Shown one piece after another: positions 29,054 to 38,383 of a stretch of 38,587 bases of DNA. The notes beneath the pieces are model-generated. The model saw only the letters and a program-made list of their open reading frames with translations, was not told the origin of the DNA and ran no database searches. Position numbers and translations under genes: made by a program. The stretch is from an uncultured Verrucomicrobiota bacterium (GTDB lineage Bacteria > Verrucomicrobiota > Verrucomicrobiia > Palsa-1439), in the NCBI GenBank assembly GCA_903825435.1, contig CAIKAP010000108.1:1-38587 (forward strand), read 5' to 3'. Within the stretch, counting starts at the first letter, position 1; every line of letters starts with the position of its first letter.

Positions 29054-29491
29054 CTACCGAATACCCAGTAGCGCCCCCGGTAAACTTTCGACGAACGTGC
29101 GGATTTGGTCACGCACGCGCCGGTAAATCGCCAGTTTCGCCTCGCCGTCCGGTAATCCCGCCGACAACTTCGGAGGATCGTCAAACCCGACGTGCACCAC
29201 CGTCGCCTTGCCGGGAAACAACGGGCAGTGCTCGTTTGCATGACCGCAGACGGTGACGACGTAATCAAATTCCACCGGCCCAAGCTCCGCGACACTCTTC
29301 GAGTGTTGCCCGGTGATGTCCACGCCCGCTTCCGCCATGACCTTGATGGCGTGCGGATTCATCCCGTGCTTCTCGATCCCGGCCGAGTACGACTCAATCA
29401 CGTCGGCTTTGAGCTGCCGCGCCCAACCTTCCGCCATTTGGCTGCGGCACGAGTTGCCGGTGCAAAGAAACAAGACCTTCAACTTTTGCAT
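29054..29491 (-). CDS. arsC: Arsenate reductase, thioredoxin-coupled (LMW-PTPase type)
   Basis: 145 residues. P-loop CTGNSCRS with Cys10 and Cys15, resolving cysteines Cys82 and Cys89 in VVTVCGHANEHCP, and the catalytic acid in FDDPPK (Asp104/Asp105). These positions coincide with the S. aureus pI258 thioredoxin-dependent ArsC. It reduces arsenate to arsenite in the cytoplasm using thioredoxin. The start at 29491 overlaps the arsR stop at 29479 by 13 bases, so arsC is translated after arsR on the same mRNA. It feeds As(III) to ArsM and ACR3 downstream. Confidence 0.95.
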   Translation of the reverse strand: MQKLKVLFLCTGNSCRSQMAEGWARQLKADVIESYSAGIEKHGMNPHAIKVMAEAGVDITGQHSKSVAELGPVEFDYVVTVCGHANEHCPLFPGKATVVHVGFDDPPKLSAGLPDGEAKLAIYRRVRDQIRTFVESLPGALLGIR

Positions 29492-29952
29492 GACGGGCAG
29501 CCTTTTCTTCCAACCGTGTCATCCCGAGCTTGTCGAGGGATCTCTGGTGTTTTCGCCCGTTTCTTTGACGACTGAGACCCTTCGAAAGGCTCAGGGTGAC
29601 AACCTCCGCAGGTGTTATTCTTTCCGGCCATCGGTTTGGTCAGCCGGTCGCGTTTGATGTCGCGTTGCAAAAAGGCGATTTCTGTAAAACAACCACGCAG
29701 ACAACGGAGCAGGGAGGTATGCACGGCGTCGGTGGCGGGTGTTAGCGAGTAGTAGATCCATTTGCCTTCTCGCCGAGTCTGCACCAGGCCTGACCGGCGC
29801 AGGTAGGCGAGGTGGCGGGAGATTTTCGGTTGCGGTACACGCAGGATGCTTTGGAATTCGCAGACGCAATGTTCCCGTTGCGCTAGTAAATTCAGCAATC
29901 GTACCCGCGTCGCATCGGCAAACGCCTTAAATAAATCCGTTGGCTGTTTCAC
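29479..29952 (-). CDS. arsR: Arsenic repressor ArsR with an in-frame palindromic insertion
   Basis: 157 residues from a GTG start at 29952 (reads MKQPTDLFKAFADATRVRLL when initiated as Met). SmtB/ArsR winged helix: sensor cysteines in EHCVCEFQ (CVC type), recognition helix PQPKISRHLAYLRRSGLVQT. The C-terminal part contains HPEPFEGSQSSKKRAKTPEI and then PRQARDD, an 81-bp palindromic repeat (29519-29599) in frame, followed by GRKGCPSCKS with two more cysteines. ArsR represses the operon and dissociates on As(III). Its own promoter overlaps a perfect palindrome. No ribosome-binding site precedes the GTG; a leaderless mRNA is implied. Usual ArsR length is about 110-120 residues. Confidence 0.9.
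   Translation of the reverse strand: MKQPTDLFKAFADATRVRLLNLLAQREHCVCEFQSILRVPQPKISRHLAYLRRSGLVQTRREGKWIYYSLTPATDAVHTSLLRCLRGCFTEIAFLQRDIKRDRLTKPMAGKNNTCGGCHPEPFEGSQSSKKRAKTPEIPRQARDDTVGRKGCPSCKS
29519..29599. repeat. 81-bp palindromic repeat inserted in frame in arsR
   Basis: Arms 29519-29544 (TCATCCCGAGC...) and 29574-29599 (...CAGGGTGA) are complementary at 20 of 26 positions. The unit is exactly 27 codons and keeps arsR open. The encoded peptide contains HPEPFEGS and IPRQARDD, a translation pattern I recognise from dispersed bacterial palindromic repeats. In the mRNA it can form a long stem-loop shortly before the arsC start. Confidence 0.75.
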
Positions 29953-29986
29953 ACCGACATCATATTCGCTTAAGCGAATATGTCAA
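29953..29986 (-). promoter_or_regulatory. ars promoter with ArsR operator palindrome, leaderless GTG start
   Basis: Minus strand: -35 TTGACA (complement of 29981-29986), 16-bp spacer, -10 TATGAT (complement of 29959-29964), then 6 nt and the GTG of arsR at 29952. A perfect 22-bp palindrome (half site CATATTCGCTT, 29961-29982) fills the spacer and overlaps both boxes, the ideal place for an ArsR dimer to block RNA polymerase. With +1 expected 6-8 nt after the -10, the mRNA would begin at or within a base or two of the start codon. Confidence 0.85.
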
Positions 29987-29988
29987 GA

Positions 29989-30017
29989 CTCGAACTCAAG
30001 CGCGCCGGTGGGGCAGT
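29989..30017. repeat. Left copy of a 29-bp direct repeat (end of a decayed oxidoreductase 3' end)
   Basis: Identical over 29 bp (starting CTCGAACTCAAG, ending GGGGCAGT) to 31648-31676. On the minus strand it encodes the ...CPTGALEFE end of the 2Fe-2S/FAD/4Fe-4S oxidoreductase. Flanking sequence to about 30060 also aligns (ADGLQ-VG-ECV) but with about 25 percent divergence and a 2-nt deletion, so this is a broken gene end and not a recent copy. It lies directly next to the ars -35 box. Confidence 0.8.
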
Positions 30018-30060
30018 TCAACACATTCCTCCCCGACCGTTTGTAGGCCATCCGCCGGCG
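29989..30060 (-). pseudogene. Decayed 3' end of a 2Fe-2S/FAD/4Fe-4S oxidoreductase
   Basis: The minus strand from about 30060 to 29985 aligns with the end of the intact oxidoreductase gene (31642-31715): residues equivalent to ADGLQxxGxECV...CPTGALEFE, TGA stop. Compared with the intact gene it lacks 2 nt between ECV and CPTG, and third positions differ widely. It is the displaced or ancestral 3' end of such a gene, now just upstream of the ars promoter, with the nuclease island between it and the intact gene. Confidence 0.65.
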
Positions 30061-30109
30061 GCGCGTGAATAAACGAGCGCCACCCGTGAGGTTTTGTAAT
30101 GGACTGAAA

Positions 30110-30126
30110 GTTACTACAACGGTAAC
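30110..30126. promoter_or_regulatory. Inverted repeat before the ERCC4 nuclease gene
   Basis: GTTAC-TACAACG-GTAAC (30110-30126), 9 bases before the ATG at 30136, overlapped by a second near-palindrome GGTAACGTTGCC (30121-30132). A candidate operator; no clear -10/-35 and no ribosome-binding site are seen. Confidence 0.4.
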
Positions 30127-30135
30127 GTTGCCACT

Positions 30136-30723
30136 ATGGATGACGATTACGCTTTCCCAAGCACCAGTCGCCTAATGGTAATGCGTCACGGACACAGCAT
30201 CGTTCGTAGCGCTGGCATACCTAAACCCATAGTGTTGGTTGACACCCGCGAACAACAGCCTTTTCGGTTAGCAACCAACCATCCTAACTGGATCGGTGGC
30301 GAAAAGCATGTGGCTCTAAAAACAGGTGACTACAGCGTCGAGGGTATGGAACAATTGTTGGCACTGGAGCGCAAGAACTTGGCCGACATTGTTGCTTGTA
30401 CCGTGGCTGGTCGAGAGCGGTTCCTGAGTTGCTGTCAACGGTTGACCAGTTTTCCTTGGAAAGCCATCCTTATTGAGGCTTCATATGAGGATCTTAAGCG
30501 TGATTGTCGAGAGTATGGCGTGGTGTCAGAGGTTCACCCGAATGCTGTGATTGGCACGCTCGACGCCATTGAAGCCAAGTTTGGCATTCCAATCATCTAC
30601 ACTTCAACGTGTCGTGAGTTGTCTACTGAGAGAGCCGCGAGCTGGCTTTCGAAGCATTTTACATACTGGTGGCTGGAGAAACATAAGTTTGGCAGAGTGT
30701 TGATTGATTTGGATGGATTATGA
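30136..30723 (+). CDS. Stand-alone ERCC4 (XPF/Mus81-type) nuclease
   Basis: 195 residues. Nuclease motifs of the XPF/ERCC4 fold: VLVDTREQQPF (Asp36, Arg38, Glu39), KTGDYSVEG (Asp65) and LALERKNLADIV (Glu78-Arg79-Lys80, Asp84), the GDY...ERKxxxD signature. No helicase domain and no C-terminal tandem HhH, so it differs from XPF/Mus81 and archaeal Hef. Stand-alone ERCC4 proteins cut branched or single/double-strand junction DNA. Sampled lines of this gene are near 45 percent GC against about 60 percent around, suggesting transfer. It is followed after 76 bp by the GIY-YIG gene in the same direction; the two nucleases appear to form a unit. Confidence 0.85.
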   Translation: MDDDYAFPSTSRLMVMRHGHSIVRSAGIPKPIVLVDTREQQPFRLATNHPNWIGGEKHVALKTGDYSVEGMEQLLALERKNLADIVACTVAGRERFLSCCQRLTSFPWKAILIEASYEDLKRDCREYGVVSEVHPNAVIGTLDAIEAKFGIPIIYTSTCRELSTERAASWLSKHFTYWWLEKHKFGRVLIDLDGL

Positions 30724-30799
30724 ATACTGCCGCTACAACGGAGACGCGGCGGGTCGATGAGTATTGTGAGACACCGCGAACATAGGACTATGAGACAAC

Positions 30800-31624
30800 G
30801 TGATTAAACTTCTCAATTTGATTAATTTGGCTGGTGTGAAACTTGGTAAGTTTAAGATTCACTGTGCAGTAGTCAATCCAAGCGGTGACTCACCATTGCA
30901 AGCCTTTTACGATGGAAAGTTTCAGCGATGGCAGGAATACCAAGGGAAACAAAACTTTCAGTGCGAAAAGGTGTTGTCGCTTATAAAAATGGAGCGAGAT
31001 CAGTGGTTGTTTGCAGGGGTCTTTAATGTCAACGGCGTAAAGCCACGTACCGACAAACTAAATGGTTACATTTATTCGACCTCCGAAGTCGGGGGACTCG
31101 ATAGTCTCGTCGGAAGGGCGATTGTCACATTCAATAAAAAGTTTCGCGCCTCTTATCTTAAAGGTCACAAATACGGCGATTCATTGACCATCTCAGAAAT
31201 TAAGCCAGAACGCGTATCCATTGGAGATTTTCCTGGCTACAATGCCGTACAGCTTCCTTTGCCAATGCTGAGGACAATTGTGCGGCAATCGCTTGCAAGT
31301 TGGAAAACCGCACTCAGCAATGTTGCTGGAGTGTATTTGATCGCCGACAATGCCGACAAGGTCGGCGGAAAACTGTGCGTTGGAAGTGCATATGGTAGTA
31401 AGGGGCTATGGCAGCGCTGGTGTAACTACGCCAGCACAGGTGACGGTGGCGATAAAGAGCTTCAAGAAGTGTTAGCTAAACACGGGGTAGATTACGCACG
31501 CAATTTTCAGTTTACGATTCTGGAAGTTATTGATTTAAACGCGAGCCTTGAGTACGTGCAATTGCGAGAAAGTCATTGGAAAAAGGTGCTGCTCACCAGA
31601 CGGTTTGGATACAACAGTAATTGA
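30800..31624 (+). CDS. GIY-YIG nuclease with a long N-terminal domain
   Basis: 274 residues from a GTG at 30800. The N-terminal domain (about 1-170) contains SPLQAFYDGKFQRWQEYQGK and KVLSLIKMERDQWLFAGVFN, a layout seen in GIY-YIG nucleases of restriction-type families. The C-terminal GIY-YIG domain has GVYLIADNADKVGGKLCVGS (GVY at 177-179, VGS for YIG), WQRWCNYASTGDGGDKE with catalytic Arg206, FTILEVIDL, and RESHWKKVLLTRRFGYNSN with catalytic Glu257 and a terminal Asn. No ribosome-binding site; TATGAG ends 5 nt before the GTG. AT-rich (sampled lines 42-43 percent GC). It ends 17 bp before the stop of the convergent oxidoreductase. Confidence 0.85.
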   Translation: MIKLLNLINLAGVKLGKFKIHCAVVNPSGDSPLQAFYDGKFQRWQEYQGKQNFQCEKVLSLIKMERDQWLFAGVFNVNGVKPRTDKLNGYIYSTSEVGGLDSLVGRAIVTFNKKFRASYLKGHKYGDSLTISEIKPERVSIGDFPGYNAVQLPLPMLRTIVRQSLASWKTALSNVAGVYLIADNADKVGGKLCVGSAYGSKGLWQRWCNYASTGDGGDKELQEVLAKHGVDYARNFQFTILEVIDLNASLEYVQLRESHWKKVLLTRRFGYNSN

Positions 31625-31641
31625 CCAGCGTTATCGTGTTG

Positions 31642-33165
31642 TCAGCGCTCGAACTCAAGCGCGCCGGTGGGGCAGTGGCGGACACATTCCGCGCCGATTT
31701 TCTGCAAACCGTCGGCCAGCGTGCCGGCCAGTGGCACGCCGACTTTCACGTCGAAGCCGCGGCCGATAAACGTCAAGCCGAGCGGTTCCTGCGCCTGCGC
31801 CGCGATGGCGACGCAGATGCCGCACGAAATGCACTTACCGGGTTCAAAGATCACTCCGCCGGGCTGTCGGATTATCTCGAACGCGCGCCGGTGTTCGCCG
31901 GCAAACGCCTTCGGGTTGACGCCGTAATTTTCCGCCACCACACGCAGTTTGCAATCGTTTGCCGCCCGGCAATCGCAGTGACAACACCGGCCCGCCGCTG
32001 TTTGCGCCTCACCAATCAACTCGTGCACGGTCAGCGCCGAGTTCGCGCCGTTGAGTAACTGCCGGTATTCCTCAGTCGTCAGCTTCGGGATCGTTGAGGT
32101 GAATTCTTTCACACCAATTTGAACCGACCGTCCGGCCAGATGACCGGCCACACACTCGGCCAGCAGCTTGCCGTCACCAACTGACCGGGCCGGATCGTAA
32201 CTGGCGCGGATGCACGTTCCGCCGGCAAACACGCCGGGCACACTTGTCTCGAAGTTGACCGGGCTAATGCGAATTGTGCGCTCGGTTGCGGCGGCGCCGA
32301 GTTGCCGGTAATCCGTTTGGGCCATACCGCCGACCGCGAGCACGACAGCGTCGTATTGCGGTCGCAGCTCATCAAGTGTGAAGTTCTGCCCGAGCCGCTG
32401 GCTACCGCGATACTCCAGACCGATCTGGCGAATCGTTTCAATGTCCGCCTCGAGCACGCCGGCCGGTAGCGCTGCCGCCCGCATCTGGCCACCGGGTTCA
32501 GCGTGATCGTCGAATACGGTCACCCGGTGGCCAAGTTTTAAGAGGAAAAAAGCTGCGCTCAAGCCGGTTGCGCCCGCGCCGACAATGGCCACGCGTTTAC
32601 CGGTGGCCGGCGCGCACGCCGGCACGTAACGCTGGCCGGCCAGATCAGCAACCTCGCGTTCGATCAATTGAATTGCGACCGGCCCGTCGTACTGCTTCCG
32701 CCGGCACCCCTGTTCGCACGGCGCCCGGCAAATCCGGCCCAGAACACCGGGGAAAACGATGTTCTCTTTCACCAGCGCGATGGCTTCGTCCATCTTGCCG
32801 GCGGCGACAAGGCGAATGGTTTCGGGGATTTGCAAATGCGCCGGGCAGGCGCGTTGGCAGACCGAAATGCAATCGCCGAGGTGATCGCTGAACAACAATT
32901 CCAACGCGGCCCGGCGCGCGGCTTTGACGTCGGGCGTTTCGCTGGCGACAACCATGCCGGCAGTCACGCGCGTCGAGCAGGACGGTACGAGCCGCGTGTC
33001 GCCGTTGACGCGGACGACGCACGCCATGCACGACGGCCGGTTCTCTTTCACACCGGCAAGGAAACAAAGCGTCGGGATGTTGAGGCCGAGCGAGCGCGCG
33101 GCATCGAGCACAGTGCTGCCATCCGGAACCTCGACGGGGCGGTTGTCAATGGTGAGTTTAATCAT
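31642..33165 (-). CDS. 2Fe-2S / FAD / 4Fe-4S oxidoreductase lacking the NAD(P)H domain
   Basis: 507 residues. N-terminal 2Fe-2S ferredoxin (MIKLTIDNRPVEVPDGSTVL; LCFLAGVKENRPSCMACVVR; VPSC), then a GltD-type 4Fe-4S dicluster helical domain (LGDCISVCQRACPAHLQIPE; GRICRAPCEQGCRRK), then the FAD Rossmann fold (RVAIVGAGATGLSAAFFLLK). After AVVLAVGG the sequence runs straight to RISPVNFETSVPGVFAGG, so the about 110-residue NAD(P)H domain (usually VVVIGGGNxAMD) is missing. A C-terminal ferredoxin follows (CISCGICVAI and ECVRHCPTGAL). Probably an electron-transfer subunit. Its 3' end is duplicated at 29989. It is not a classical glutamate synthase small chain. Confidence 0.85.
   Translation of the reverse strand: MIKLTIDNRPVEVPDGSTVLDAARSLGLNIPTLCFLAGVKENRPSCMACVVRVNGDTRLVPSCSTRVTAGMVVASETPDVKAARRAALELLFSDHLGDCISVCQRACPAHLQIPETIRLVAAGKMDEAIALVKENIVFPGVLGRICRAPCEQGCRRKQYDGPVAIQLIEREVADLAGQRYVPACAPATGKRVAIVGAGATGLSAAFFLLKLGHRVTVFDDHAEPGGQMRAAALPAGVLEADIETIRQIGLEYRGSQRLGQNFTLDELRPQYDAVVLAVGGMAQTDYRQLGAAATERTIRISPVNFETSVPGVFAGGTCIRASYDPARSVGDGKLLAECVAGHLAGRSVQIGVKEFTSTIPKLTTEEYRQLLNGANSALTVHELIGEAQTAAGRCCHCDCRAANDCKLRVVAENYGVNPKAFAGEHRRAFEIIRQPGGVIFEPGKCISCGICVAIAAQAQEPLGLTFIGRGFDVKVGVPLAGTLADGLQKIGAECVRHCPTGALEFER
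31648..31676. repeat. Right copy of the 29-bp direct repeat
   Basis: Identical to 29989-30017. It forms the functional 3' end of the oxidoreductase gene (CPTGALEFE), which makes it look like the attachment-type end of a 1.66-kb island. The distance between copies is 1659 bp and the region between contains only the ERCC4 and GIY-YIG nuclease genes. Confidence 0.8.
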
Positions 33166-33683: not shown

Positions 33684-35804
33684 ATGGACACTAGTAAATC
33701 TTCGATGCCGGAAGTGCGGTTGCATTTCCTTGATTACTGGCGAGTGGTGAAAACTCGCAAAGCGATCGTATTCATGGTATTTTTGATCGTCATTCTGGTG
33801 GCCGCCACAGTGACGTTCTTCCAGCCAAAAATCTACATGTCGGCCTCGCGCATCAAGGTCGAGCAGGAGCGGTTGACCGTAGAACTGTTCCAGCAGCAGG
33901 GCTACGGCGGGTACGATCCTTATTTTCTTCAGACCCAATACGAAATCATCCAGTCGCAAAAAATCCTTTACCCGGTAATCGAGCGATTTGACTTGCGCAA
34001 GCGCTGGGCCTATGGCGGCGATCCGCTGCCGATGGAACTGGTATTTCGGATGTTGAAACGGGCAATGTCAGTGCAACGCTTCCGCGACACCAGTCTGATT
34101 GAGATTCGCGTGTTTGACCAGGACACGCAACTGGCCGCCGACCTGTCCAACAGCATCGCGGACACCTTCGAGAAAGACCGTCTGGAAGTGCGCCGCCAGC
34201 AAACGATGAAGGGACTTTTGAAAGTACAGGAGGAACTGGACAAACAGTCGAAGAAAGTCAGCGATGCCCAGGATAAAGTCGAGAAGCTGCGCAAGGAACT
34301 GAACGTCCAGATGTTTGGCACCGTTAAGCTCAACGACCTGACCGTCCAACAACTGGAGAGCCAGTTGACCTTGGCCCGCGTGGAATGCGTCGGGCGCGAC
34401 ACGCGGCTGAAGGAGTTAAAAAAATTGACCCATGAACAGTTGCGCAACGCCATCGCCACTGTGGTCGGCGACCTAACGCTCCAGCAGTTGATCCAACAGC
34501 TCACTGATTCCGAAGTTCGCCTGGCTGTGCTCAAACAGGATTATGGCCCCGGCCATCCGCAGGTCAAAGCGGCTATCGTCCAGCGCGACACATTGAGCCA
34601 GCAGATTGACTCGCGGCTAGACGGCATCATGCGCGGCTACGAAGTAGACTTCCTCATGACGAAGGAACGCAGCAATGAGTTACAGAAACAACTCGATGAA
34701 CTGAAAAAGGCCAGCATGCTCATGGAAAGCGAGGCGTTCCTGCCATTCCGCAACGCCCAACGTGCAGAAGAATCCGAAACCAAGCTCTTCGAGGTCCTCA
34801 AGCAGCGCCTCCAACAGGTCACCATCGAACTACAAGTACCGCGCAGCCCCGTCGAGTTGATTGACCGAGGCGAGCCGTCGCTCGGCGCCGTCAAACCCGA
34901 CTGGGCGCTCAATCTCAGCATCGGCGGCCTCGTCGGGCTGTTGCTCGGCATCAGCCTGGCCTTCTTCATCGAGTTTCTCGACACCAGCCTTAAGATCATG
35001 GACGATGTTGAGCGATATCTCGGCCTGCCTGTACTCGGCGTCATCCCGCAACAGGCCACCATGCTCAGCGCCAGCAACGCCTCCCAACTTCACCTCGAAG
35101 CCTACCGCATGCTGCGGACAAACCTAGACTTCAGCTACCCCGGCCCCGGCACCAAATCCATCGCGGTCCTCAGTAGTGCCGCCGGCGAAGGCAAATCCTT
35201 CACACTTGCCAATCTCGCCTTCGTTTATGCTCAGCAAGGCATCCGCGTGTTGGTGGTGGACACCGACCTGCGTCGGCCGACTGCCAACAAGTATTTCGGC
35301 ATCAGCCGAGACAACGGGCTGTCCGACTATCTCGCCGGAACTAAGTCGGTGGACGAAGTTATCCACCAAAGTAACCAAACCAATGTTTGGATAATCCCAG
35401 CCGGCGACCCGCAAGCAGCCAAGGCGGCGCTGCCGCTGTTGACCTCGCAACGGATGAATCAGCTCATCCAGGAACTCGCGCAGCGTTTCGACGTGGTGCT
35501 CTACGACACACCGCCGGTGCTCGGCATCAGCGACGCGGCGGTCGTCGCCCGCGAAGTCGGCAACGCCATCCTTGTTGTGCAGCACCGCCGTTATCCGCGC
35601 GCCATGTCGCAGCGCGCCCGCAAGATGATCGAGCACTCCGGTGGCAAGCTGCTCGGCGTTGTCGCCAATAATGTCAACGTTGGTGGCGACGACAGCTACT
35701 ATTACTACCATGAGCACTACGAGCATTACCTTCGCGACCGGGAGACCCACGGGGGTGGGAAGGAAACCAAGTCCGAGGAAATTAAGTTGCAGGGCAAGTA
35801 CTGA
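33684..35804 (+). CDS. Polysaccharide co-polymerase / bacterial tyrosine autokinase (Wzz-BY-kinase)
   Basis: 706 residues. Wzz-type membrane domain: helix 1 around residues 26-47 (AIVFMVFLIVILVAATVTFF), long periplasmic coiled coil (about 160-400), helix 2 around 410-432 (LNLSIGGLVGLLLGISLAFF). The cytoplasmic BY-kinase has Walker A SSAAGEGKS (about 497-505), Walker A' VLVVDTDLRRP (about 522-532), and Walker B DVVLYDTPP (about 602-610). It ends with a tyrosine cluster SYYYYHEHYEHYLRD for autophosphorylation. It controls chain length and export of an exopolysaccharide. It is followed directly by the Wza-like lipoprotein gene and by an O-antigen-ligase gene on the same strand. Confidence 0.95.
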   Translation: MDTSKSSMPEVRLHFLDYWRVVKTRKAIVFMVFLIVILVAATVTFFQPKIYMSASRIKVEQERLTVELFQQQGYGGYDPYFLQTQYEIIQSQKILYPVIERFDLRKRWAYGGDPLPMELVFRMLKRAMSVQRFRDTSLIEIRVFDQDTQLAADLSNSIADTFEKDRLEVRRQQTMKGLLKVQEELDKQSKKVSDAQDKVEKLRKELNVQMFGTVKLNDLTVQQLESQLTLARVECVGRDTRLKELKKLTHEQLRNAIATVVGDLTLQQLIQQLTDSEVRLAVLKQDYGPGHPQVKAAIVQRDTLSQQIDSRLDGIMRGYEVDFLMTKERSNELQKQLDELKKASMLMESEAFLPFRNAQRAEESETKLFEVLKQRLQQVTIELQVPRSPVELIDRGEPSLGAVKPDWALNLSIGGLVGLLLGISLAFFIEFLDTSLKIMDDVERYLGLPVLGVIPQQATMLSASNASQLHLEAYRMLRTNLDFSYPGPGTKSIAVLSSAAGEGKSFTLANLAFVYAQQGIRVLVVDTDLRRPTANKYFGISRDNGLSDYLAGTKSVDEVIHQSNQTNVWIIPAGDPQAAKAALPLLTSQRMNQLIQELAQRFDVVLYDTPPVLGISDAAVVAREVGNAILVVQHRRYPRAMSQRARKMIEHSGGKLLGVVANNVNVGGDDSYYYYHEHYEHYLRDRETHGGGKETKSEEIKLQGKY

Positions 35805-35822
35805 ATGAGGTTTGATGGTGCC

Positions 35823-36431
35823 ATGAAGACAATGTTTCGAGTTCATTGTGTCCCTGTCGTTGTCGCGGCAGTGGTAAGTATGTTGTGGTTGGCGGGCTGT
35901 GGCACTCCCTCCGCCTCCACGGGGAGGGTCGTTACGGAATCCTCGCACGAAGGCGATTCGCTGTTGCGGGCGGGCGATCCGCTACAGGTCCGTGTTGAGA
36001 CGAATCCCACAATGTCGCCGCAGATTTCGGAGGTGACGGTGGACGACGAGGGGTATATCGCGCTGCCGCTGATCGGGCGGCTGAAGGCAGCGGGTTCGAC
36101 GACAAGCGATCTGGCCGACAAGATCCAGAAGGCGTACGTGCCGCAGTACTATGTACGTTGTACGGCGACAGTCCTGGCGCCCACGCGCTTCTTCTACATG
36201 GGTGGCGAGGTTAAGAATCCGGGTCGATTCCCGTGGTCGAAGGATATGACGCTGTTGAAAGCCATTAGCACCGCCAGCGGATATACAGATTTTGCCAACC
36301 GCGCCAAGGTGGAACTTACCCGTGGCCGCAACAAGTTGGTCTACGATTGTGAAGATATCCGCCGTCATCCGGAAAAAGATGTGCCGATCCAACCGGGTGA
36401 TTCGATCTATATTCCCCGCAGCATCTTCTAA
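35823..36431 (+). CDS. Wza-like polysaccharide export lipoprotein
   Basis: 202 residues from the ATG at 35823 (MKTMFRVHCVPVVVAAVVSM then LWLAGC). LAGC is a lipobox, so the protein is anchored in the outer membrane through its cysteine. The Poly_export domain includes LLRAGDPLQVRVETNPTMSP and VTVDDEGYIALPLIGRLKAA, then SLBB-like repeats (FYMGGEVKNPGRFPWSKDMT, LLKAISTASGYTDFANRAKV) and the end IQPGDSIYIPRSIF. An alternative start at 35805, directly after the kinase stop, lacks a signal-type N-terminus. It forms the export channel partner of the BY-kinase. Confidence 0.92.
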   Translation: MKTMFRVHCVPVVVAAVVSMLWLAGCGTPSASTGRVVTESSHEGDSLLRAGDPLQVRVETNPTMSPQISEVTVDDEGYIALPLIGRLKAAGSTTSDLADKIQKAYVPQYYVRCTATVLAPTRFFYMGGEVKNPGRFPWSKDMTLLKAISTASGYTDFANRAKVELTRGRNKLVYDCEDIRRHPEKDVPIQPGDSIYIPRSIF

Positions 36432-36466
36432 ACGGGATGGTTTTTGTTAAACGGTGATCAAGGGTT

Positions 36467-38383
36467 ATGTTGCCTCCAATATCTCGCTCCCACCATAGAG
36501 TAAAGTCTTCCTCCGGTGGCGACACTAGAGCGCCGTTGGCTCCGGTGTCGGCGTTCTGCCATCGGGTCGTTTTCTTTCTGCTGGTGGCATTGCTGACGGT
36601 GGCGCCGCTCGTGCCAGCCGCCTGGGAAGCGTGGGGGCGCAATGGCATGGTGTGTGTCGTTGGACTGATGATGCTGGTGTGGATTGTGAGCCAGCTCTTG
36701 GGGCGCGATGTGCAGCTGGTTTCCACACTTTTGAATGCACCGATGATGTTACTGGCGACCTACGCGGTCATCCGTTATGGATTGAGCGACGTGGAATGGG
36801 TAGCGCGGCGCGACGTGTTACTGTTGTTGGGAATGGCTCTGTTGTTCTTCATGGCCACCAACGTCATCCGCCACCGCTGGCAGTTTGTCTTTCTGATGTG
36901 GATACCACTGGGGGTGGGTGTTGTGTTGTCGCTACAGGGGCTGTGGCAGATGCTGTATAATGAGTGGGGCAGTATCGATTCGGCCATGAGGCGAGAGGCT
37001 ATCCGTGGAAATTTTGTAGAAACGGCAGACCACCTTGCCTATCTGCACATGGCCTTTCCTATAGCCGTCGCCGTCTTCTTTTTTTCCCGGCGCACCCTCG
37101 TGGAAAAAATTCTCTGTGCGTTTGCCTCTGTGATCCTCGTTGCCGGGATGGTAGCGACGGGCGACTTGCATCACTGGTTCGGTTGGATGGTGTCAGTCGC
37201 GGTGCTCGGTGGCTACCTGCTGCGCAAACGCGGCTGGAAATTCCACCGGGTGTTGGTTGGCGCAGGTGTGTTGCTGGTCGTCGTCACTATCAGTTGGCTT
37301 GCTGTTCTCAAACTCGATGGTATCGCGCCGCCTCAACCGGTAATCGGCCCAGCGCCGTCAATAGCCACGGTGCCGTTGTGGCGGAGCGCTGTGACGATGG
37401 CGGTGCGTAACCCGTTGATTGGCATAGGACCCGGTATGTTCACGTGGCGTTACCCTGAATACCGCAGCCAACAAGGCTCACCCACTGGTGCCGACAGTGG
37501 GTGTCTCACCTTCCTTGCCGAGTACGGCGTTACGGGCGCGCTGCTGGCCCTTTCGGCGGTCGTGGCCTTCTGTGTTGTCGCCATCCAGATTCTCAATGCT
37601 CGCGCCCGTCGTTACTCGGTGTCCTCGAACTCCAATCGCTACGCTTTCGCCGTTGCTGGGCTTGCTGTCATGGCAGTGGCGCTCGTGGACGCGGCTTTGG
37701 CCAGCGGCTTCGACGCGAGCGCTAATCAATTCACGCTCGTGACCATCCTCGCCGCCACTGTGACCTGCGGTTTACACCACCGCGATGAACATCCTGAAAA
37801 AATTCACACGCCGGGTAAACACAACTTGTTCCGACTGACCGGCATACACCGGGTCATGTTGACTTCTGGTTTTGTGATGGCGTTGTCGCTCTTTCTGTGG
37901 TTGCTGATGAAAACAATTCCTTCCACCTTTCTGCTAGAACGCGCCCGTCAACGTGTCGCCCAAAAAGACTTTACCGCTGCCGAGGGGTTGTATCGCAAGG
38001 CGATACGGTTCGACGTGCGCAACTTCGAGGCGATGGGCGGTTTGGCCGACCTCTGCGCTGTGCGCGACGAATCCACCAACCACGACCAAGTCTTGAGCCT
38101 GTACGAACGCGCGCTTGCTCGCAATCCCTACGCTTACGAACTATATGTCAAGATCGCGCACCTCTACGATGCTGCGGGCAAACGCGAGAAAGCCGCCGAA
38201 CAGTATCAACTTGCGATTCAGAGCGATCCTCGCAACGCTGCCTACTACATCGCCAGCGCCCAGCATCACCTCCGCTGGGACGAACGCGACTTGGCACAAG
38301 CCGCGTTCCGCCGGGCCGCTGCGCTTGATCCTGCCTGCATCGCGTCCGCAACCAATGCGCCCGCCACCGATAGCAGCGATTAG
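36467..38383 (+). CDS. O-antigen ligase/polymerase family protein with C-terminal TPRs
   Basis: 638 residues. About eleven membrane helices (for example FCHRVVFFLLVALLTVAPLV; GMVCVVGLMMLVWIVSQLLG; AVAVFFFSRRTLVEK) and a periplasmic-loop region NPLIGIGPGMFTWRYPEYRS, typical of the Wzy_C/O-antigen ligase domain. A C-terminal TPR region (about 490-630: ARQRVAQKDFTAAEGLYRKA; VLSLYERALARNPYAYELYV; AAEQYQLAIQSDPRNAAYYI) is extracytoplasmic. It polymerises or ligates the exopolysaccharide made by this cluster. The start lies 35 bp after the Wza stop. The exact reaction (polymerase versus ligase) cannot be told. Confidence 0.88.
   Translation: MLPPISRSHHRVKSSSGGDTRAPLAPVSAFCHRVVFFLLVALLTVAPLVPAAWEAWGRNGMVCVVGLMMLVWIVSQLLGRDVQLVSTLLNAPMMLLATYAVIRYGLSDVEWVARRDVLLLLGMALLFFMATNVIRHRWQFVFLMWIPLGVGVVLSLQGLWQMLYNEWGSIDSAMRREAIRGNFVETADHLAYLHMAFPIAVAVFFFSRRTLVEKILCAFASVILVAGMVATGDLHHWFGWMVSVAVLGGYLLRKRGWKFHRVLVGAGVLLVVVTISWLAVLKLDGIAPPQPVIGPAPSIATVPLWRSAVTMAVRNPLIGIGPGMFTWRYPEYRSQQGSPTGADSGCLTFLAEYGVTGALLALSAVVAFCVVAIQILNARARRYSVSSNSNRYAFAVAGLAVMAVALVDAALASGFDASANQFTLVTILAATVTCGLHHRDEHPEKIHTPGKHNLFRLTGIHRVMLTSGFVMALSLFLWLLMKTIPSTFLLERARQRVAQKDFTAAEGLYRKAIRFDVRNFEAMGGLADLCAVRDESTNHDQVLSLYERALARNPYAYELYVKIAHLYDAAGKREKAAEQYQLAIQSDPRNAAYYIASAQHHLRWDERDLAQAAFRRAAALDPACIASATNAPATDSSD

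Follow-up and report, generated by a model that had tools for sequence, protein, structure and literature searches.

A small horizontally acquired insertion with genes for a divergent UzuA and a stand-alone ERCC4 nuclease at an oxidoreductase 3' end in an uncultured Verrucomicrobiota bacterium

We analyzed a 38,587-nucleotide (nt) stretch of DNA, referred to here as the window (contig CAIKAP010000108.1, assembly GCA_903825435.1, an uncultured Verrucomicrobiota bacterium), in which two identical 29-bp sequences, CTCGAACTCAAGCGCGCCGGTGGGGCAGT, lie 1659 bp apart, the left one next to the promoter of an arsenic (ars) operon and the right one within the end of an oxidoreductase gene (Table 1). This pair is the sole exact repeat of at least 20 bp in the whole window. 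Between the two copies there are only two sizeable open reading frames (ORFs), both on the plus strand and separated by a 76-bp gap, which encode an ERCC4-type and a GIY-YIG-type protein. The GC content of the insert is 47.6%, compared to 59.2% for the window, and is the lowest of all its 1.6-kb stretches. An earlier sequence-only reading of this DNA had noticed the repeat pair, the intact oxidoreductase gene ending in the right copy, the decayed end of a similar gene at the left copy and the two nuclease genes of lower GC content, all of which were confirmed, including the 2-nt deletion of the left copy, which appears as a gap in the alignment. The segment is a real, small horizontal insertion that carries a divergent UzuA and a stand-alone ERCC4 gene, and the 3' end of the oxidoreductase gene is its insertion site.

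Table 1. Positions of the genes, repeats and promoter-like site at the insertion locus in the window
Feature	Position	Strand	Evidence
ArsR-family repressor, first gene of the leftward arsenic operon	29479..29952	-	ORF; HTH_5 E 1.1e-14
ars operon promoter-like sequence, TTGACA-16-TATGAT, 11/12, contains palindrome ATATTCGCTTAAGCGAATAT	29959..29986	-	
Oxidoreductase 3'-end remnant of ~80 nt (left copy), 2-nt deletion	29981..30060 (end approximate)	-	Alignment
Left 29-bp exact repeat (core)	29989-30017	.	Repeat search of window and assembly
Stand-alone ERCC4/XPF-type nuclease, 195 aa	30136..30723	+	PF02732 E 1.6e-9; phrog_3490 E 5.2e-14
UzuA-family GIY-YIG protein, 274 aa	30800..31624	+	PADLOC PDLC03973 E 8.5e-59; phrog_26160 E 5.7e-54
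Intact Fe-S/pyridine nucleotide oxidoreductase, 507 aa, Fer2/Fer4/pyridine-nucleotide domains	31642..33165	-	ORF, domain matches
Right copy of the 29-bp exact repeat (core), within the oxidoreductase 3' end, codes for ..CPTGALEFE	31648-31676	.	

The match of the ERCC4 protein to PF02732 exceeds the curated cut-off, and its catalytic motif is intact (D36-x-R38-E39 / G64DY66 / E78RKxxxD84). Within the GDX(n)ERKX3D motif, residues G64, Y66, E78, R79, K80, and D84 are invariant and D65 is nearly so among 19 aligned members. XPF/Hef-type domains nick branched or flap DNA, and the closest solved relative is PDB entry 1j22 (sequence match E 7e-6), which we take to be the Hef nuclease domain. No HhH family match was obtained for the protein in a Pfam search to E 1, and no helicase domain was detected, with the NCBIfam Hef match covering model positions 570-686 of 781 and lying far below the cut-off. 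The subfamily has no PADLOC match, and a search of the literature on stand-alone bacterial ERCC4 proteins in defense returned nothing useful and no assigned function.

A contig scan retrieved 34 ERCC4 loci from several phyla (including that of a same-family genome, G009, at L026, and excluding the window's own), with identities over the best segments of 35-82%, mostly 55-74%. The distribution is sporadic, with the full form present in 3 of 365 genomes of the class, and members with 55-74% identity across phyla occur in many different gene contexts. The gene appears to be under purifying selection (dN/dS 0.09, dS saturated). Some ERCC4 loci adjoin genes for restriction, GmrSD-like, HKD-helicase, ARPP-1, or ADP-ribosylglycohydrolase proteins, and these neighbors make a single-gene defense role of the subfamily plausible. 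ERCC4-type nucleases also recur in haloarchaeal tailed viruses and occur on plasmids. Inspection of the 130 nt downstream of more than 25 ERCC4 homologues revealed no shared element; in the absence of a common attC-like element, an integron gene cassette was ruled out.

Several other features of the ERCC4 loci were observed. At L031, L032, L041, L042, and L047, the gene is located near WYL/HTH-like regulators, ADP-ribosylglycohydrolases, and ARPP-1, which suggests conflict-type neighborhoods. Small PDDEXK-type proteins are encoded directly beside it at three unrelated loci (L032, 6640-7104; L039, 6731-7207; L072, 6718-7143), where PDDEXK_5 was matched below the cut-off in two cases and no Pfam family in the third. 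A more distant subfamily with conserved neighbors, found in Acidobacteria-type genomes (L053-L057), looks core rather than mobile.

The second protein has no Pfam match, and its identification as UzuA rests on the PADLOC label, its residues 1-274 being aligned with positions 2-278 of the 278 in model PDLC03973. The sequence-only reading knew of no described system of this composition, which does not hold for the GIY-YIG half: it belongs to the catalogued UzuA/Uzume family, whose members are carried as single genes. In a listing in PMC12926258, Uzume appears among the systems attributed there to Doron et al. 2018 and Millman et al. 2022, and its mechanism is given as unknown. The predicted fold matches viral GIY-YIG proteins over about 100 columns, and for the N-terminal region no PDB structure was matched at E <= 0.001. 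UzuA was found in 6 of 286 genomes of the class, and relatives of it occur on plasmids, in phage records, and on viral contigs. An alignment-based scan of viral contigs yielded 19 loci (L108-L126), in nearly all of which the HG(G/W/N)N motif is intact; single-sequence scans of these contigs retrieved no relatives.

The residues singled out earlier as catalytic, E78 and K80 in ERCC4 and R206 and E257 in the GIY-YIG protein, are found at these positions and are conserved in their families. The window UzuA has the motif GVY-CVG-R206-E257-N272, in which G177, Y179, R206, E257, and N272 are kept, and differs from nearly all relatives by the changes Y193C, H215D, and N218D. The tyrosine of YIG is thus Cys193, and HGGN has become DGGD. 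Because these three conserved nuclease-motif residues are changed, the protein is possibly inactive or altered, and its nuclease activity is doubtful. The same replacements would fit a possible, though on balance unlikely, explanation in which ERCC4 is a recombination or repair helper of mobile elements rather than a defense gene and UzuA is here a decaying passenger. The recurrence of ERCC4-type nucleases in haloarchaeal viruses and on plasmids also speaks for it, whereas the neighborhoods with restriction-type and related genes, which fit defense islands, and the purifying selection on ERCC4 argue against it.

The 29-bp repeat is embedded in a duplicate of approximately 80 nt of the oxidoreductase 3' end, in which the left and right copies are 92% identical over 37 nt and 70% over the following 40 nt. 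The left copy derives from a similar oxidoreductase gene and adjoins the ars promoter, the -35 box TTGACA overlapping the TGA stop of the fragment. Upstream of the core, 28 of 45 positions are identical between the two copies, compared to 29/29 within it; the 17 mismatches are all confined to the 45-nt part (P 5e-5 under a uniform rate). This abrupt switch in identity, from 62% to 100%, was seen in the left/right pair only and not in other gene pairs. The right copy and G009 share 38/47 and 23/29 positions without such a switch, and the left and right cores each differ from that of G009 at 6 positions (23/29). Furthermore, the left arm shares more positions with G009 (35/45) than with the right copy. 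This mosaic supports recombination at the oxidoreductase gene end, and it fits an event in which the end of the resident gene and a foreign fragment of an oxidoreductase end crossed over, or were later converted, within the core; a tandem duplicate that had drifted would fit less well.

A rather unlikely alternative is that the repeat stems from a tandem oxidoreductase gene duplication and a subsequent deletion, and that the nuclease genes arrived separately and without relation to it. It would account for the left copy being a genuine oxidoreductase 3' end, for a spacing close to the gene length of 1524 bp, and for the G009 insert lacking a repeat. The abrupt identity switch at the core argues against it, as does the left arm, whose closeness to G009 indicates that it did not arise recently by local duplication, unless the core was homogenized by gene conversion. 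The sequence-only reading had raised the question of further copies of the repeat; none was found elsewhere in the 3.43-Mb assembly with up to 3 mismatches allowed, and a dispersed genomic element was ruled out with two copies only. Neither a tRNA nor an Rfam match was detected at the site, which ruled out a tRNA-linked or RNA-linked insertion site.

The same junction was identified in G009, where the order of the permease, methyltransferase, ArsC, ArsR, and oxidoreductase genes is as in the window and the ArsR protein shares 78% amino acid identity with the window copy over 118 residues. The gap between the ArsR and oxidoreductase genes is again about 1.65 kb, but it harbors a gene on the minus strand for a 511-aa N6_N4_Mtase plus Mrr_cat protein (L061, 2393-3928; the window counterpart is 29987-31641). 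In both genomes, the left boundary is located exactly at the ars TTGACA and the right boundary at the last oxidoreductase codons. The different cargo of G009 marks the junction as an insertion site of variable content. The ERCC4 copy of G009, 74% identical to that of the window, is instead found in the purL-purF interval, next to a 141-aa ORF with a resemblance to the PDDEXK-type neighbors of other ERCC4 genes and with no Pfam hit itself. In genome G000, the purL-purF gap contains only a small lipoprotein-like ORF and no ERCC4 gene. Together with the junction cargo of G009, this shows that neither the site nor the gene is fixed.

We consider it improbable that the segment is a minimal integrative element that is mobilized in trans by an integrase and for which the 29-bp core within the end of the oxidoreductase gene serves as attachment site. 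The location of the direct repeat at the 3' end of a gene, a replacement end by which the reading frame is restored (EFER-stop), and the use of the same junction in G009 are consistent with this proposal. However, the insert contains no site-specific recombinase or integrase, neither of the two sizeable ORFs encoding one, no other core copy is present in the genome, no repeat surrounds the G009 insert, and no second genome with the same ends was found. A dedicated mobile element is thus not supported by the sequence comparison, since the G009 insert lacks a second oxidoreductase end and a recombinase is missing here. The minimal mobile island proposed earlier is likewise not supported, on the same grounds and because no empty site was found.

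No other ERCC4 and UzuA genes were found together. There was no UzuA gene in the fetched flanks of the 34 ERCC4 loci retrieved and no ERCC4 gene near the UzuA loci of genomes, plasmids, and the 19 viral contigs, with flanks of 1.5-6 kb that were often cut by contig ends, so that a distant co-localization could escape. The full ERCC4 subfamily was present in 0 of 14 other UzuA-bearing genomes, one of which had a distant partial match. UzuA thus has no recurring ERCC4 partner, ERCC4 being its neighbor in this genome only. Since no other co-occurrence was found, the adjacency would most simply reflect a chance meeting of two mobile genes. Although the genes share their strand, the 76-bp gap, a nuclease nature, and a foreign composition, a cooperating antiphage or anti-plasmid system, in which ERCC4 would open or nick branched DNA for the GIY-YIG protein to finish its destruction, is very improbable, given that the pair is absent from 33 other ERCC4 loci and all UzuA loci, that genome-level co-occurrence is lacking, and that the UzuA motif is altered; with no second co-occurrence in the other loci or genomes examined, this candidate was rejected. 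The sequence-only reading itself had named such a result as refuting its system idea, and of its interpretation the foreign composition, the insertion at the oxidoreductase 3' end, and the recombination pattern were retained, but not the two genes as a pair. Also very improbable is a non-autonomous mobile unit of about 1.66 kb, attached at the oxidoreductase 3' end, with a cooperating pair of genes, the altered UzuA as sensor or scaffold and ERCC4 as the working nuclease.

Taken together, these data make it probable that the segment is a short, horizontally acquired cargo at a variable junction between the oxidoreductase 3' end and the ars promoter, consisting of two independently mobile single nuclease genes that are neighbors by chance. 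Entry may have occurred by one recombination event within a stretch of about 29-34 bp in which the resident oxidoreductase end was identical to an incoming oxidoreductase-end fragment. Its product would have been the resident gene body, the core, and the cargo on the right side, and 45 foreign nt, the core, and the resident ars promoter on the left side. Each gene would act alone against invading DNA, UzuA through GIY-YIG cleavage, if it is still active, and the ERCC4 protein through the nicking of branched or flap DNA, as do XPF/Hef-type domains.

Several observations weigh against this explanation. The anti-phage action of either gene is putative, the window UzuA has lost its three conserved motif residues, and the flanks compared were short. 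At the left side of the G009 insert, no second oxidoreductase end was detected above shuffles, and the case for a common insertion mechanism of the two inserts is weakened because of this. No empty site, as the sequence-only reading had suggested looking for, was found in 384 genomes of the class or in 11 genomes of the order. The ars-oxidoreductase junction exists in two genomes only, and both are occupied; the other genomes with the oxidoreductase have no ars neighbor.

With this insertion, a divergent UzuA is recorded in a Verrucomicrobia lineage, and the ars/oxidoreductase junction emerges as a site of exchange for single-gene nuclease and restriction-type cargo. The bacterial stand-alone ERCC4 subfamily is its more interesting half and a reasonable choice for testing on its own. 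As to the wider surroundings, the window oxidoreductase stands alone beside the ars operon and is followed by polysaccharide chain-length/tyrosine-kinase and export-type genes (33684-38383), and the G009 contig stops soon after its oxidoreductase. In other genomes, the oxidoreductase follows large NuoEF/HoxEF-like ORFs (L060, L086-L088; by inspection).

Considering known systems, the window UzuA resembles the catalogued anti-phage family Uzume (PADLOC PDLC03973/PDLC03974) in its full-length profile match, its stand-alone gene with a C-terminal GIY-YIG domain, and its relatives on plasmids, phages, and prophages. It differs by an identity of 27-46% to the aligned relatives, by Y193C, H215D, and N218D, and by the ERCC4 gene alongside. 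The ERCC4 protein shares the GDY..ERKxxxD motif and the conserved HPNA region with XPF/Hef-type domains (PF02732; PDB 1j22-1j25), but has neither a helicase domain nor an HhH Pfam match, and its subfamily is bacterial, 195 aa long, stand-alone, and equipped with a conserved N-terminal stretch of its own. Haloarchaeal tailed-virus nucleases (phrog_3490) are likewise stand-alone ERCC4 domains, with 24-40% identity; they reside in archaeal virus genomes, whereas the bacterial subfamily is chromosomal and rarely plasmid-borne. Genomic islands at gene 3' ends also have a direct repeat that equals the gene end and flanks cargo of lower GC content, but the window insert measures 1.66 kb, has no integrase, and its repeat is absent in G009. 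Finally, the ars/oxidoreductase case rests on two genomes only, unlike defense hotspots with exchangeable single-gene cargo, which it resembles in that the junction holds UzuA and ERCC4 in one genome and a methylase-Mrr protein in another.

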